From positions 1-64,000 of the forward strand of contig CALEDJ010000032.1 of the NCBI GenBank assembly GCA_937951485.1: a stretch of 64,000 nt of DNA. The letters are read 5' to 3'. The DNA comes from an uncultured bacterium (GTDB lineage Bacteria; Hydrogenedentota; Hydrogenedentia; Hydrogenedentales; CAILVY01). The stretch's first letter is position 1; each line of letters opens with the position of its first letter. Both the position numbers and the translations under genes were made by a program. A model generated the notes under the pieces. The model searched no databases. It was not told the DNA's origin and saw nothing but the letters and a program-made list of their open reading frames with translations. Shown here piece by piece: positions 48,382 through 55,572 of this stretch.

Positions 48382-48410
48382 TTTACAAGGAACTCTTTTT
48401 TGGATAAAAT
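48382..48410 (+). promoter_or_regulatory. Sigma70 promoter of the first pseudopilin-like gene
   Basis: TTTACA, 17 bases, TAAAAT, five of six consensus bases in each box. The predicted transcript starts near 48417 and the ATG lies about 55 bases on, after AAGGAGG. Confidence 0.7.
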
Positions 48411-48471
48411 AGGGAAAGATAGGGATAAAGTGAAAACCCTTGTCGTCATTAAAAAAGAAAAGGAGGATAAG

Positions 48472-49416
48472 ATGAAATACTCGATGAAAAGAACCGGTAC
48501 CGCAAAAGGGTTTACTCTGATCGAATTGTTGGTGGTGATCGCGATCATCGGCATTCTGGCGGCGATCTTGTTGCCGGCGCTGGCGCGCGCACGCGAAGCG
48601 GCGCGACGCTCATCCTGCCAGAACAACCTGAAACAGTGGGGGCTGGTGATGAAGATGTACGCCAACGAGTCGCAGGGGCAGAAATTCCCGCCGATGGGTA
48701 CGGAAGCGAACATGGCGGAACCCAACGCGAAGGGATGGGTGTGCTGTCCGGCGGGAGAGACGATATATCCCGAGTACCTGTCGGATATGAACATTTACTT
48801 CTGCCCATCCGATGTCAATTCCTATGCGAAGGACTATATCCTCTGCCCGCAAGGAGCATGGTGCACCGGCCCTGACCGCACCTTGGACCCGACACATTTC
48901 GAAGACCGCAGTTATGTGTACTACGGGTATGCGGCGGAAGATGCGTTTGTGTGGCTGACAGGGAATGGCTGGTTGGTCTATGAGGAATTCCTCGTTGGCG
49001 GCTATCCTGACGCAGCCGACTACGCCCGCGCAGCGGACAACGATTTGGCGAATATAGACCTCGTCGTGCTTGAAATCGTCGCACGAGCCTATTTCTCCGA
49101 GGAGATTTCGCGCATCGAGGCGCTGAGCGGTCAGACACTGCGCCTCTATGGCAACGGCGGCGGCAACACGGTGTACCGCCTGCGCGAAGGCATCGAACGC
49201 TTCCTGATCACGGACATCAATAATCCGGCGGCCAGCGCGAAAGCCCAGAGCGAACTCGCCATCATGTGGGACCAGATAGACGAGGACGTGGATTTCTCGC
49301 ACATGCCGGGCGGCTGCAATGTGCTGTACCTGGACGGCCATGTGGAATGGCACCGCTATCCGGGCGAACACCCCGTATCCGTCATCAACGGCATCCTGGG
49401 CCGCCTGATCGGCTGA
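48472..49416 (+). CDS. Prepilin-type (type II pseudopilin-like) secreted protein 1
   Basis: 314 residues; AAGGAGG sits 5 bases before the ATG at 48472. After a basic leader the prepilin signature [14 protein letters not shown] appears, with Gly as cleavage site, Phe+1 and Glu+5 for N-methylation. The hydrophobic helix is followed by the family's [20 protein letters not shown]. The globular part has several Cys ([15 protein letters not shown]) and ends with the DUF1559/H-X9-DG region [19 protein letters not shown]. Hundreds of such proteins occur per genome in Planctomycetes and relatives; they assemble on type II secretion-like machinery or form surface fibres, but roles are unknown. Confidence 0.88.
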
Positions 49417-49570
49417 AGATTCGCGAAAATCGGAAGCGCTCACACCCGCGGCAAAGGGGGGAATGGCCTATGTCGCTCGTTGCATCCTGTGAAAGGGGAA
49501 CTGTGGCCGATTGGCGCGTTTGAGGGAAATGAGTAGATTTTGCGCGATGGTGTTTGTCGTGCCCCAAAAT

Positions 49571-49610
49571 ATCCCCCTTTGAAGGGGGAGGGCGCGAAGC
49601 GCCGGGGGAT
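49571..49610. repeat. REP-like compound hairpin
   Basis: The arms ATCCCCC and GGGGGAT enclose two further hairpins, CCCCCTT with AAGGGGG and GGCGC with GCGCC. The same kind of structure occurs widely as intergenic repeats. It lies between two pseudopilin-like genes and could terminate or process the first transcript. Confidence 0.75.
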
Positions 49611-49647
49611 GTTTCCAATAGCCTCAACTTTGCGATAACATACTGCC

Positions 49648-50397
49648 ATGATATCCGAATTTTATGATTATCCATCCTTGGGCAGCGCGCGAATCAGGCG
49701 GGCGCGCGGGCGCGGCTTCACGCTGGTCGAGTTGCTGGTGGTCATCGGCATCATCGGCATTCTGGCGGCATTGCTGCTGCCCGCGCTGTCGCGCGCCCGC
49801 GAGGGAGCCAAGCGCGCCTCGTGCGCCAACAACCTCCGGCAGATTTATATCGCCTTTGAGTGCTACCTGCTGGAGCACAAGGACACCTACCCCGCATGGC
49901 AGGATACCCCGCTCGACAAGTCGCCGGGTTACTGGCTCTGGATGGGGCGCGGCTGGCGGCGTCTGCTCGCTCCCTACATCCCCGGCGACAAGGAACGCCC
50001 CGGCGTCTTCTACTGCCCCTCGGACACCCGCCAGCGCAGCATTGACGTGTTTGAACGCACTTCCTACGCCTATTCCATGGCCTTCTACCATTCCCCGGAA
50101 CAAATCAACAGCATCACCACCGTCGCCGGCAATTACAGCAATCCCCTTCCGGCCATCCCGCAGACCAGCGCCGCGCTCCGCCATCCCACCCGTAAAATCC
50201 TCATCGGGGAGTGGTACGCCAACCACGCCGCATGGGGCAACGACCGGGGATGGTTCGGCCCCGGCGGCAAACGCCTCTACCTCTTCGCCGACGGCCACGT
50301 CGAATTCCTCGACGCCGCCCAAATCCGCCCCGCCAACGACGGCAACCCCAACCCCAATCTCACCAAAGACGGCATCGCCGGCTACGATGTGCAATAG
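49648..50397 (+). CDS. Prepilin-type (type II pseudopilin-like) secreted protein 2
   Basis: 249 residues. A long basic leader (about 22 residues, RIRRARGR) precedes the prepilin signature [14 protein letters not shown] with Glu+5. Downstream is the family's [20 protein letters not shown] motif and a C-terminal [19 protein letters not shown], the H-X9-DG-type block. The globular part has Cys in [11 protein letters not shown] as in the first copy. No Shine-Dalgarno site is visible before the ATG at 49648, so the start could differ. The two proteins lie 230 bases apart and share little beyond the class motifs, so they are separate members, not a recent duplication. Confidence 0.85.
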
Positions 50398-50463: not shown

Positions 50464-51018
50464 TTACGATTTCATAAAACGGGATAGTTCGGCTTTGGCT
50501 GCACGCCGTCCGGCATTGGTGATACGCCAGACAAGTCCGCCGCCGGCTTCCACCCAGCCTTCCTGTACCATGGCTTTTCTGGCGCGTAACACCATGACCT
50601 GCCACCGTTGAAACCGTCCCCCCGACATGGAATCCCGATCATTCTCTTTGAAAACCGGCGCCATGATCTTTTCGACTTCATCCATAAGCGCTTGGCGTTT
50701 TGCCTCGCCGCCCAATGCCTCAAGTGCCTGCAAAATCGGTTGATAAAATGACCACAACGGCGTCTTTTCGTTCTTCACCGGGCGAACTTTTCGTGCAGGG
50801 CGAAGCAAGTTTTTCCATTGTTTCCTAAGGGTCTCCACTTCCTGAATAAAGGCCTTGATTTCTCGACCACGGCGCGCCAGCGCCTCAGCCTTGTCGTACT
50901 CTCCGCGCATCATCAATTTTCCTGCTTGCGCGTTCAGCGAATCCAAGGCATTCTCAATCGTGCCAATGACGGTCTTAAGCGCTTTGTCCACTTCTGCAGA
51001 ACGTGGTATCACTTGCAT
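50464..51018 (-). CDS. Coiled-coil plus Mrr-N-like winged-helix protein
   Basis: 184 residues. Residues 1-75 are helical with heptad-like spacing (VDKALKTVIGTIENALDSLN, GEYDKAEALARRGREIKAFI), likely a dimerising coil. A basic linker (RPARKVRPVKNEK) leads to about 100 residues resembling the Mrr N-terminal winged helix (PF14338): PLWSFYQPILQALEALGGEA, MDEVEKIMAPVFKENDRDSM, RWQVMVLRARKAMVQEGWVE, then GGLVWRITNAGRRAA. In restriction proteins this fold reads DNA. No nuclease domain is attached here. Its ATG overlaps the end of the HNH/DGQHR gene by 10 bases, so the pair is co-translated and the nuclease is probably its partner. Confidence 0.72.
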   Translation of the reverse strand: MQVIPRSAEVDKALKTVIGTIENALDSLNAQAGKLMMRGEYDKAEALARRGREIKAFIQEVETLRKQWKNLLRPARKVRPVKNEKTPLWSFYQPILQALEALGGEAKRQALMDEVEKIMAPVFKENDRDSMSGGRFQRWQVMVLRARKAMVQEGWVEAGGGLVWRITNAGRRAAKAELSRFMKS

Positions 51019-52655
51019 TGGTACATTAGCCCCTGTTTTTCCTTGATCATTTCGTGAAGATTCAATCCTTCAGTAAGAATGCGTTGGCCATTGGTCGCCA
51101 CGCCTGTATTGAATACCTTATCCCAAAATTCCGGATTTTGCTTGGGGCCGAAGACAGTCGTGCTGAGATTCCGATCCACCCAACAGGGAAGTTGGCCAAG
51201 ATTACTGAGGAAAATCCCAATGCGGCACCATAATTCATCCGGAAGTTTCGTATGTAACAGGCGTTCCTTATCCACCATTCTTCCCGTCCACGAGAAGAAA
51301 TTCTCGATGACCAGACGAATCCACTTCACTGTAATGGTTACCACCTCTTCTCTGGCGATGCGCCATGCCCTCAGATGATATTCATCAATTTTTTCCCCTT
51401 TTTGAATTCTCGCTTCAAGCCGTCTCCCGCCAATTTCAGGGTCCCATTTGCCAACAAAGAAAACTTCGGCAAACAGGGACATTAATCGCACCATCTGCTC
51501 CCGTTCCAAGAACCGGGGATTTGTCCCCTGCTCAAATCCCTCATCAATGGGCGAATCAAGCGCCTTCTTATAAAGGAATTCCTTAAAGAATGTCTTCTCG
51601 ATGGTTGAGTAAGAAATTGGCCGGTTTCCCGTTTTTCCCGCCCACTCCACAAATTCCAACAATTTGTTTTCCGCGCTGTGCGTGATGTTGTCGCGTTGCG
51701 CATCAATGATATACCGTTCCATTTCACGACGTTCCCCGCGAAAGAACCGGACGAGGTCCTGTTCGCTGAAGGAAAGATCGTCTTCGGGAAGGCCGCGCAT
51801 GCGCCGGTATTGCTGCACGCGCTCTGCATACAAAGTGCTTCCCAGGTGTCGCATCACTGCCTGATCAAAAGCCACCTGACGAAGTTTTCCGCCCGCGTTC
51901 GTATTAGCCTGAAGCAAGACGTTAATGTTGGGTTCAACGAACACCCTCACCGGCAATTCACGAACTCCGAGAAGGATTTGTGCTGCGGCCTTATGCTGTC
52001 CATCAAAAAGTTTCAATGGGCCGCTGCCATCAGAATCTTCCGGCGCCCACCAAGCCAAGCCGACATGCAATTGAGGGCGTTTCTGGAGAAACTCTTCGAT
52101 CAGACCGCGTATGTTTGGACCGATGCTGCGCGGATTGATCCGATCATCATGGTGAAGATATTCGATTGGAAAACTGGCGAAAAAATAGTCCATACCGCTG
52201 AGTTTGTCAGTGAGAACAGGTGATTGTCGAATCCTGTTGTCACCGGATGCGCTCATAGAATATTGGATCGAGTCGCCATCACGCTTCAGACGAAGAGAAT
52301 ACTTCGCACCGCCGTGACGCTCAAGAACATCGCCGAGATTAGCGCCTCTTTTCCCGGCTTTCTGCGCTTCCTGCTGGAGTTTTTCAAATTCGGCAAGGCG
52401 ACGTGCGACACGAAGATCAGAAGCGCCTTTGCTGCGATTGCAACTGGCGTGCGTCAACGCGAAATTGTTTTCTGAATCCAGACCATCTTCGACAATCGGG
52501 TCAATGTGATCTATGTCAAGTTGGCCTGCATGCAGGGTAAGATCAACAAGTTCATCGCATATGAAGCACCGGTTATTCTGGCGATTTGAGAGACGTTGCT
52601 CCAATTCATGTCGTTGAATTTCGGTCAGTGCGCCGAGGTATTTTGACGCGGCCAT
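51009..52655 (-). CDS. HNH endonuclease fused to a ParB/DGQHR-like domain
   Basis: 548 residues; AGGGAGGA lies 8 bases before the ATG. Residues 25-80 are an HNH nuclease: Cys30-x-x-Cys33, DIDHIDPIVEDG with Asp49-His50, Asn64, His69, Cys72-Asn73 and Lys. A long linker leads to a ParB/DGQHR-type domain with the exact signature Asp218-Gly-Gln-His221 in KLFDGQHKAAAQILLG, plus LLQANTNAGGKLRQVAFDQA, recalling DndB and other DGQHR proteins of DNA modification and defence. The last 250 residues are unassigned alpha-rich sequence. The combination suggests recognition of modified or foreign DNA followed by cleavage, an inference. The Mrr-N-like gene overlaps its end. Confidence 0.8.
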   Translation of the reverse strand: MAASKYLGALTEIQRHELEQRLSNRQNNRCFICDELVDLTLHAGQLDIDHIDPIVEDGLDSENNFALTHASCNRSKGASDLRVARRLAEFEKLQQEAQKAGKRGANLGDVLERHGGAKYSLRLKRDGDSIQYSMSASGDNRIRQSPVLTDKLSGMDYFFASFPIEYLHHDDRINPRSIGPNIRGLIEEFLQKRPQLHVGLAWWAPEDSDGSGPLKLFDGQHKAAAQILLGVRELPVRVFVEPNINVLLQANTNAGGKLRQVAFDQAVMRHLGSTLYAERVQQYRRMRGLPEDDLSFSEQDLVRFFRGERREMERYIIDAQRDNITHSAENKLLEFVEWAGKTGNRPISYSTIEKTFFKEFLYKKALDSPIDEGFEQGTNPRFLEREQMVRLMSLFAEVFFVGKWDPEIGGRRLEARIQKGEKIDEYHLRAWRIAREEVVTITVKWIRLVIENFFSWTGRMVDKERLLHTKLPDELWCRIGIFLSNLGQLPCWVDRNLSTTVFGPKQNPEFWDKVFNTGVATNGQRILTEGLNLHEMIKEKQGLMYQCK

Positions 52656-52730: not shown

Positions 52731-53531
52731 TTAATCCGTCTTCTGCACTTGTCCTTTGAGTTCATCGCTGAGCAGGTCCCAGAGATGCGGGTGTGCTTCG
52801 ACGAGGCGGGCGATGTCGGCGAGGTCTTTGATGCGTTTGCTTTGCCTGCGGGCGGGGTCCGTCCACGCGCGCATTTTTCCGTGGAGCGTATCTTCCAGGG
52901 ATGCGACGCGCATGAGGATGCCGTGGACATCGGCGGGGACGGCGCGGGCAGGGAACTCGCGGTAGAACGACTCGGTGCTGCATTGGATGCTGAGCGCGGA
53001 TTGCCCTTTGAGGTTTATGGACCACTCGAAGCGTTCCGCGTGAAACCCTGCTTCTTCGAGGAGTTTGACGGCGCGCTCGACGTCCTCCGCCGCCACAACG
53101 ATGTCCACATCCTGCGTGACCATGGGGTTCTTCGCCCAGTGGTTGACGGCCAGGCCGCCGATTGCGCACCAGGCAATGTCAGCCCGTTCCAGGCAGTCAA
53201 TAAGGCACATCACGTCGTTCGTGCCGCCGGAGGTCTGCCAATCGAAGAACTGTTTGGAAGTCACGGTACTGTGCCTCTGCTGGTTGCCATCGAACATCTT
53301 GCTTGTCGCCGGATAATGTTTTAGGAGTTCCTTGAACTGCCGGGGAGTCAAGCCTGCGTCCTGCGCAATGGCGCCCATGGTGAATGAATTGATGGGATTA
53401 TGGCGCGGAATGGTAAGCCTTATAACACCGTTGGACATTACAGTGTGTTTCCCTTCGCGCACTGTCTTATACCCGATCTTGCGAAATACGCGGACCGCTT
53501 CTTCCCAACTGATCCCCGGAATGCGTGGCAT
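52731..53531 (-). CDS. HicA toxin domain fused to a nucleotidyltransferase domain
   Basis: 266 residues. Residues 1-70 are a HicA/YcfA mRNA interferase: RIPGISWEEAVRVFRKIGYK, the catalytic His29 in EGKHTVM, RLTIPRHNPINSFTMGAIAQ and LTPRQFKELL. Free-standing HicA ends about here. A linker (71-108) leads to a nucleotidyltransferase of the AbiEii/MNT type: IGGLAVNHWAKN (Gly125-Gly126), TQDVDIVV with Asp141 and Asp143, and GKMRAWTDPARRQSKRIKDL near residues 218-238, where the family has K and R-x-K-D-x-x-D. Both domains keep their key residues. The ATG is one base after the hicB stop. Two toxin-type domains in one chain under one antitoxin is the striking point. Confidence 0.85.
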   Translation of the reverse strand: MPRIPGISWEEAVRVFRKIGYKTVREGKHTVMSNGVIRLTIPRHNPINSFTMGAIAQDAGLTPRQFKELLKHYPATSKMFDGNQQRHSTVTSKQFFDWQTSGGTNDVMCLIDCLERADIAWCAIGGLAVNHWAKNPMVTQDVDIVVAAEDVERAVKLLEEAGFHAERFEWSINLKGQSALSIQCSTESFYREFPARAVPADVHGILMRVASLEDTLHGKMRAWTDPARRQSKRIKDLADIARLVEAHPHLWDLLSDELKGQVQKTD

Positions 53532-53532
53532 T

Positions 53533-53730
53533 TCAGACCGTCACGATTTCTTCGGTAATTTTGAATTCCGCTTTGTCCAATTCCTCGGCATCGAGCCATT
53601 CCCGAATGGCTATGCGGATATTGGCAAGCGCTTCTTCACGTGTTTCCCCTTGGGAGTGACAACCGCGAAGCGCGGGACAACTCACGGACACCCCCTCTTC
53701 CGTCTCTATTAATGTAACCCGGAATTCCAT
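53533..53730 (-). CDS. hicB: HicB-like antitoxin, short form
   Basis: 65 residues. It has the HicB partial-RNase-H-like fold: FRVTLIETEEGVSVSCPALR, GCHSQGETREEALANIRIAI, REWLDAEELD, the usual C-P-x-x-x-G-C-x-S-x-G-x-T-x-x-E-A pattern. There is no room for the C-terminal DNA-binding domain found in longer HicB proteins. GGAG lies 10 bases before the ATG. It precedes the HicA-fusion gene by one base; antitoxin-first order is common in hicBA variants. It presumably binds and blocks the HicA domain; whether it also controls the nucleotidyltransferase is unknown. Confidence 0.9.
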   Translation of the reverse strand: MEFRVTLIETEEGVSVSCPALRGCHSQGETREEALANIRIAIREWLDAEELDKAEFKITEEIVTV

Positions 53731-53758
53731 AACTTCTATGCTCCATTCTCCTTGAGGA

Positions 53759-53788
53759 ATTATACGGGAATACCGCGAATCCGGGCAA
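53759..53788 (-). promoter_or_regulatory. Promoter of the hicBA-nucleotidyltransferase unit
   Basis: On the minus strand TTGCCC, 18 bases, TATAAT. The start of transcription would be near 53752, about 22 bases before the hicB ATG. Nearby GGTATTCC and GGAATT-type half-sites around the -10 could be an operator, but the dyad is imperfect. Confidence 0.6.
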
Positions 53789-54025
53789 TCCCACGGATAT
53801 TCCCCCCGGCCCGACTCGCTTCCATGGCCTTTATTGAAACATCAATGCTGTTTCGACAAGACAAAACGTTCCGTCAGTCGCCGAACCGCGATCTCCGCTG
53901 TTTCCGCTTGCGCGCAGGCGCTGAGATTCCGCGCACGCTGAAACGTGAACAACACGGGATGATCGCTTCGCGCCGGGGACTGCGGCGGCGTATACTAATG
54001 GCATGCAATGGAGGGTGCGCCGGGC

Positions 54026-54598
54026 ATGAATGGAATCGCAAAGATGTTGTTGTTTCTGTGTCCGCATTGCGATGAGTTGCTGAAGGTGCCTGAGGCGTAT
54101 CTTGGGCAACGCGGCCGGTGCAACAAGTGCGGCGGGCGCATCGCGCTTATCGGCGATGCAAACCTGGCAACACCGCAGGCGGCCAGCATCGTGGCGGATG
54201 AGACGGCGACCGACCCACGCCTCGGACCGCCCAAGCCGGCGTCGGACAAGCAATTGGATTATCTCCGCGCCTTGGGCGCGCCGGAACAGACCTTGCGCGG
54301 TCTCGACCGGGATCAGGCTTCGGCGCTGATTGACGAACTGAAGGAAAAGCGTCAACGCGGCGAGCCGCCGACGGAAAAGCAATTGACATACCTGAAACAC
54401 CTCGGCGCAACGGAACGGCAATTAGGCCGGGTGCGCAGCAAGGCGGATGCGACGCGGCTAATTGAGGACCTGCACCTGTCGCCCACGGCAGACCAGATCA
54501 AGCGTCTGAAGGCGCTGGGCGCGAGCGGCGCGCACCTCGCAGCGCTGAAATCCAAGGCCGCGGCGGACGCCCTGATAGAGGAATTGAGCGATCCATGA
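54026..54598 (+). CDS. Zinc-ribbon protein with three tandem ~40-residue helical repeats
   Basis: 190 residues from ATG 54026 (alternatives 54008 and 54044). Residues 10-40 are a zinc ribbon, Cys12-x-x-Cys15 and Cys32-x-x-Cys35, with the VPEAYLGQRGRC linker seen in many PVC zinc-ribbon proteins. Three related repeats follow: SDKQLDYLRALGAPEQTLRG ... ASALIDELK, TEKQLTYLKHLGATERQLGR ... ATRLIEDLH and TADQIKRLKALGASGAHLAA ... ADALIEELS. Each has a K/D-Q-(L/I) start, L-x-x-L-G-A turn and L-I-x-x-L end, suggesting SAP-like helical hairpins. The TGA overlaps the radical SAM ATG by 4 bases, so the two are translationally coupled. Nucleic-acid binding is plausible but unproven. Confidence 0.75.
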   Translation: MNGIAKMLLFLCPHCDELLKVPEAYLGQRGRCNKCGGRIALIGDANLATPQAASIVADETATDPRLGPPKPASDKQLDYLRALGAPEQTLRGLDRDQASALIDELKEKRQRGEPPTEKQLTYLKHLGATERQLGRVRSKADATRLIEDLHLSPTADQIKRLKALGASGAHLAALKSKAAADALIEELSDP

Positions 54599-55572
54599 AC
54601 TTTTTCCTGCAGGACATGGAGACGGCGGGGGAGGGGATAGACCCGCGTTTTGTGGTGGACCCATTTGAACCCGCCTATATGAAACTGGATGACGACACAT
54701 TGACTGCACGCCTGGGATGGGCACATGAATCTCTGCGGGAATGCCATGCCTGCCCGCGCATGTGCGGGGCCGACCGCATGCAGCGCGAGGAAGGCTATTG
54801 CCACACCGGCCGCTATGCGCGCGTGGCCAGCGCGTTTCCCCATTTCGGCGAGGAATGGTGCTTGCGCGGCATGCGCGGTTCCGGCACCATCTTCTTCAGT
54901 TGCTGCAACCTGCGCTGCGTCTTCTGCCAGAACGCCGACATCAGCCAGCAGCGCACCGGCGCGGAATACCCCCCCGACATGCTCTCCGACCTCATGCTGG
55001 AATTACAGCAGGCGGGTTGTCACAACATCAATTTCGTCACGCCGGAACACGTCGCCCCGCAAACCCTGGAAGCCATTGTCGCTGCAATCCCCAAGGGGCT
55101 GAAGGTTCCCATCGTGTACAACACCAGCGCCTACGATTCCGTGGATACCCTGCGGCAATTCGACGGTCTGGTGGACATCTATATGCCGGATTTCAAGTTC
55201 TGGAATTCCGAAAGCGCCGCCCTGTATTCCAAAGCCCCCGATTACCCGGAATACGCCCGCGACGCCATCCGGGAAATGCATCGTCAGACGGGCGTCCTGC
55301 GTTTTGGTCCCGACGGCATCGCGCGGCGCGGCGTGCTTGTGCGACACCTGGTTATGCCCGGCATGCTGGAGGAGTCCGCCGCCATCTTCGAGTGGCTGGC
55401 GCAGGAAATCTCCCCCGACACCTTTGTCAATATCATGGCCCAATACCGCCCCGCCAACCACGTCGGGCGCGACCCCCGCTACGGCGGCATCGCCCGGCGC
55501 CCCTCCAGCAAGGAACTCGACGCCGCCTATGACGCAGCCCGACGCGCAGGATTATGGCGTTTCGATAAATAA
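54595..55572 (+). CDS. Radical SAM protein, PflA-like (COG1313 type)
   Basis: 325 residues. The radical SAM cluster motif is Cys104-x-x-x-Cys108-x-x-Cys111 in FFSCCNLRCVFCQN. Upstream is a second Cys set, Cys50, Cys53, Cys57 and Cys69 (CHACPRMCGADR ... GYC), which in this family may hold an auxiliary cluster or zinc. Family features: FPHFGEEWCLRGMRGSGTIF, HNINFVTPEHVAPQTLEAI, PIVYNTSAYDSVDTLRQFDG, VDIYMPDFKFW and VLVRHLVMPGML. Homologues are annotated as pyruvate formate-lyase activating enzyme-like but their targets are unknown; no glycyl radical enzyme is nearby. It is coupled to the zinc-ribbon repeat protein, which may be a substrate or adaptor. Confidence 0.88.
   Translation: MNFFLQDMETAGEGIDPRFVVDPFEPAYMKLDDDTLTARLGWAHESLRECHACPRMCGADRMQREEGYCHTGRYARVASAFPHFGEEWCLRGMRGSGTIFFSCCNLRCVFCQNADISQQRTGAEYPPDMLSDLMLELQQAGCHNINFVTPEHVAPQTLEAIVAAIPKGLKVPIVYNTSAYDSVDTLRQFDGLVDIYMPDFKFWNSESAALYSKAPDYPEYARDAIREMHRQTGVLRFGPDGIARRGVLVRHLVMPGMLEESAAIFEWLAQEISPDTFVNIMAQYRPANHVGRDPRYGGIARRPSSKELDAAYDAARRAGLWRFDK

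Follow-up and report, generated by a model that had tools for sequence, protein, structure and literature searches.

The fused gene in the 64,000-nt stretch analyzed here (the window) probably arose when an ordinary hicBA toxin-antitoxin pair and an unrelated stand-alone nucleotidyltransferase (NTase) gene were joined by loss of the hicA stop codon, giving a chimeric reading frame private to this genome. Since the two genes are separate in every relative found, a chance event looks likelier than a novel type of toxin system. Neither the private nature of the join nor its coincidence with a gene boundary in the relatives is visible from the window alone.

The fused HicA-NTase frame (53531-52731, minus strand) encodes 266 aa without an internal stop and begins one base (53532) after the end of hicB (Table 1). 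A preliminary description of the region had given this layout, a 65-aa HicB, one base and a single open frame, with coordinates, strand and frames all correct. It had also proposed an N-terminal HicA domain with His29 and a C-terminal NTase with Gly125-Gly126, Asp141 and Asp143; all of these residues are present, and Pfam places both domains above cut-off. HicA_toxin is matched at residues 9-61 (33.5 bits against a cut-off of 27), while the C-terminal part matches AbiEii (PF08843, 1.5e-7) and also NTP_transf_5 (5.7e-7). HicB matches HicB_lk_antitox (29.1 bits, cut-off 27), with neither an HTH nor an RHH match in Pfam. Further matches of the locus proteins in NCBIfam and PADLOC were weak or AbiEii-like. 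The locus is present in a single copy in the genome (4.55 Mb, 77 contigs).

Table 1. Features of the hicB and HicA-NTase locus, in window coordinates.
Feature	Position	Strand	Basis
hicB, 65 aa, small antitoxin without DNA-binding domain	53533..53730	(-)	PF15919, 1.2e-6
HicA domain, residues 1-70, His29 intact	53322..53531	(-)	PF07927, 4.4e-8
Linker of 57 nt (codons 71-89), probably once intergenic	53265..53321	(-)	Similar to nothing
MenT1/AbiEii-type nucleotidyltransferase (NTase), ancestral start at codon 90 (GTG)	52731..53264	(-)	Relatives and fold
TTGCCC-18-TATAAT, promoter-like, upstream of hicB	53759..53788	(-)	Consensus match only

HicA is common in the phylum, being found in at least 49 of 68 Hydrogenedentota genomes. 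In the closest relatives of the pair, a HicB 58-69% identical to this one is encoded directly upstream of hicA. The six closest HicA relatives of standard length each have 70 aa, with a stop as the following codon, and lie behind their own hicB. The pair resembles HicBA Class 2 (Gerdes 2024; PMC10865869) in having hicB first, a HicB without a DNA-binding domain, similar HicB and HicA sizes, and the HicA active-site His, but differs in that HicA continues into a 19-residue linker followed by an NTase of 177 aa. A separate HicA protein of 60-85 aa is a Class 2 trait; the frame here runs to 266 aa, unlike that of any relative. By analogy with an ordinary type II pair, HicB would probably still bind and neutralize the HicA domain. 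HicA had a sole phmmer match in the PDB, to SUMO2, which was set aside as chance.

The NTase relatives tell a matching story from the other side of the join. The gene is separate in each of the 28 aligned full-length relatives, with an ATG located exactly at the window's Val90 (GTG). (The joint alignment was used for the NTase only; HicA rows were misplaced on the NTase in it and were left out.) These relatives come from the Hydrogenedentota, Planctomycetota, Lentisphaerota, Verrucomicrobiota, Desulfobacterota, Acidobacteriota and other phyla, and most are 64-77% identical to the window's NTase; two Hydrogenedentota sequences are 42-43% identical. One phylum genome (G012) and the GTDB record JAKQEQ010000023.1 (Candidatus Hydrogenedentota) carry the same NTase locus. 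No recurring neighbor was found beside the NTase in its relatives, where only near-syntenic pairs of loci share neighbors, and no cognate antitoxin gene was found next to it; HicB adjoins the NTase in this genome only. Because identities of about 64-77% extend across very distant phyla without a conserved neighbor (loci L030-L053), the sequences suggest that this orphan MenT1-like NTase may have spread horizontally as a single-gene unit.

Relatives match either residues 1-71 or from about residue 84-90 to the end, never both. The linker between them (residues 71-89) resembles none of the relatives of either half, and residues 75-89 have low pLDDT in the model of the fusion. The HicA half of that model is also of low confidence because the alignment rows covered only the NTase, and it was not used for domain contacts. 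An origin of the linker from a repeat or from the end of a mobile element was considered and rejected: no good second copy was found in the genome, and no flanking direct repeats frame hicBA. Since the relatives of each half end or start at these points and the linker matches nothing, the join is an ordinary gene boundary that is read through in this genome.

The assembly has GAACTCCTAAAACATT at the end of hicA (CTCCTAAAAC in the region 53250-53340). This end reads CTC CTA AAA, and a TAA shifted by one base from the hicA frame lies at the place where relatives stop (CTCC-TAA-AAC, compared with CTTCTG-TAA-AAC in the relative L010). This arrangement raises the question of an assembly or sequencing indel, in which case the true locus would be a 70-aa hicA ending in TAA followed by an NTase starting from the GTG at 53264, with no fusion at all. 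Several features would fit such an error: every close HicA relative ends exactly at residue 70, the TAA of the window stands in the +1 frame at just that spot, an SD-like AGAGG precedes the GTG by 9 nt, and the assembly is fragmented. It would, however, require loss of 2 nt or gain of 1 nt outside any long homopolymer, which is rare in short-read assemblies, and a single substitution of TAA to AAA accounts for the sequence equally well. An indel artifact is considered possible but unlikely.

Under the preferred explanation, stop loss in a real chimera, a compact Class 2 hicBA pair would have ended up some 55 bp upstream of a normally stand-alone MenT1-like NTase gene. The hicA stop would then have been lost, by a single TAA-to-AAA change or by loss of 2 nt just before it, and a short intergenic stretch, by chance free of stops and in frame, would have let hicA read into the NTase, making the latter a C-terminal passenger that now depends on the hicBA promoter for expression. 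In 13 of the 28 relatives, the 18 codons that precede the NTase form an open stretch in frame with it; stop loss would thus lead to in-frame read-through about one time in seven (1/3 × 13/28). From these sequence comparisons, chance alone would suffice for the origin of the fusion. Against a mere accident, both halves are well kept: the NTase shows no deviation at 49 near-invariant columns, and the HicA half keeps 23 of the 25 columns that are invariant in six of its closest stand-alone relatives (two deviating). The fusion has therefore caused no decay; it may be either tolerated or of use.

The fusion was found in just one of 68 Hydrogenedentota genomes, this one; the NTase is a separate gene in several of them. 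The search for the same domain order gave nothing in the 67 other phylum genomes, 27 GTDB loci, plasmids, phages or IMG/VR, and no locus holding both halves was seen among the relatives' loci examined. Among the matches listed, three long-frame HicA proteins (G061, G064 and G037) were set aside, having HicA C-terminal to an unrelated upstream frame and no NTase. A conserved fusion family was rejected accordingly, as these collections hold no second instance.

The preliminary description had suggested a composite system, with one antitoxin for two toxins or an NTase domain acting on HicB. With no conserved homologues of the fusion, neither idea gains comparative support. A functional composite would mean that HicB restrains one protein with two activities, mRNA cleavage (HicA) and modification of tRNA 3' ends (the MenT1-like NTase), or that the NTase tunes the HicA-HicB pair. 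In its favor, the active-site residues of both domains are retained, and the NTase has the fold of MenT1, a toxin that a small protein antitoxin inhibits; but the arrangement occurs in one genome only, the NTase family is without HicB everywhere else, and the linker has no conserved counterpart, which together make a composite quite improbable. More doubtful still is the specific version in which one HicB would hold a two-headed toxin in check (mRNA cutting plus modification of the tRNA acceptor end), the orphan MenT1-like NTase having gained an antitoxin by fusion. If the two activities were in fact jointly controlled, this would be the first HicA-NTase composite toxin; the comparative record gives no such pointer.

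None of the 14 HicA contexts catalogued by Gerdes (2024; PMC10865869) includes an NTase. Fused HicAB/HicBA proteins (Classes 11-13) and SMC-HicA (Class 14) likewise have HicA within a longer chain, but there it is joined to the antitoxin or to SMC rather than to an NTase, with several instances each against one genome here (PMC10865869). Although the arrangement is unlisted among these classes, one private chimera would be weak ground for a new one. A 2009 survey described HicA-HicB and HEPN-MNT as strictly unique pairs save for domain fusions (PMC2701414). The present case suggests how toxin-antitoxin genes can gain partner domains, by one lost stop codon beside a neighboring gene.

The stand-alone NTase family, spread across distant phyla without an antitoxin, may be the more useful lead. 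The AlphaFold model of residues 90-266 has a pLDDT of 89.7, and its best structural match is M. tuberculosis MenT1 (8an4; Z 18.1, rmsd 2.1 Å over 156 residues), with ANT(2'')-Ia (Z 13.8) and MenT3 (Z 11.2) lower. AbiEii (PF08843, DUF1814), above cut-off here, matches 28 of 29 NTase family members. MenT1 (Rv0078A, of the MenAT family) shares the small NTase fold and the T-x-D-x-D motif, with T50, D52 and D54 (NTase numbering) corresponding to MenT1 T39, D41 and D43 (PMC10435456). D52, K130 (in 28 of 29 members), D147 and D150 are conserved; K130 and the last D were paired with the MenT1 catalytic set (D41, K137, D152) by motif order, not superposition. Identity to MenT1 is just 22%, however, and the NTase here has no MenA1-like partner, being stand-alone in relatives and fused in the window. 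The nearest guess is a tRNA-modifying toxin; the substrate may instead be a small molecule, as for ANT and Lnu enzymes.

Of the 27 stand-alone NTase relatives, 12 (L002, L003, L031-L034, L036, L038, L043, L045, L048 and L052) have a TANNNT sequence, read as a -10 box, that ends 6-7 nt ahead of the ATG, compared with 0-2 at control positions. This excess suggests that the NTase gene is normally served by a promoter of its own, travelling along with it, and has a leaderless mRNA. There is no such box before codon 90 in the window, and the NTase here therefore probably relies on the hicBA message. The preliminary description had assigned this message a TTGCCC-18-TATAAT promoter; the sequence is indeed there (53788-53759), but as a promoter it is not above chance, with two promoter-like sites found in the region vs. 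1.1 expected from shuffles. All relatives have ATG at codon 90, and the GTG in its place in the window would fit a start codon that is no longer required. GTG can still serve as a translation start, and given the SD-like sequence upstream the NTase is possibly also started from this old codon.

Downstream on the same strand is a gene for a 548-aa HNH protein (51009-52655, minus strand) with a DGQHK motif, which is suggestive of DGQHR/ParB-like proteins. It is overlapped by a gene for a 184-aa protein with an Mrr_N domain (50464-51018, minus strand), and the two look like a small restriction or defense pair. A conserved defense operon uniting the locus with the HNH gene was also considered, but the HNH protein has no relatives at E 1e-20 in the 67 other phylum genomes with which to compare it. 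Beyond these, on the plus strand, two consecutive genes (48400-50397) encode proteins with type IV pilin-like N-termini, resembling DUF1559-type prepilin proteins. On the other side of the locus, a 196-aa zinc-ribbon protein with repeats is encoded at 54008-54598, and its gene adjoins one for a probable radical SAM protein with the cysteine cluster CNLRCVFC (54595-55572, plus strand).
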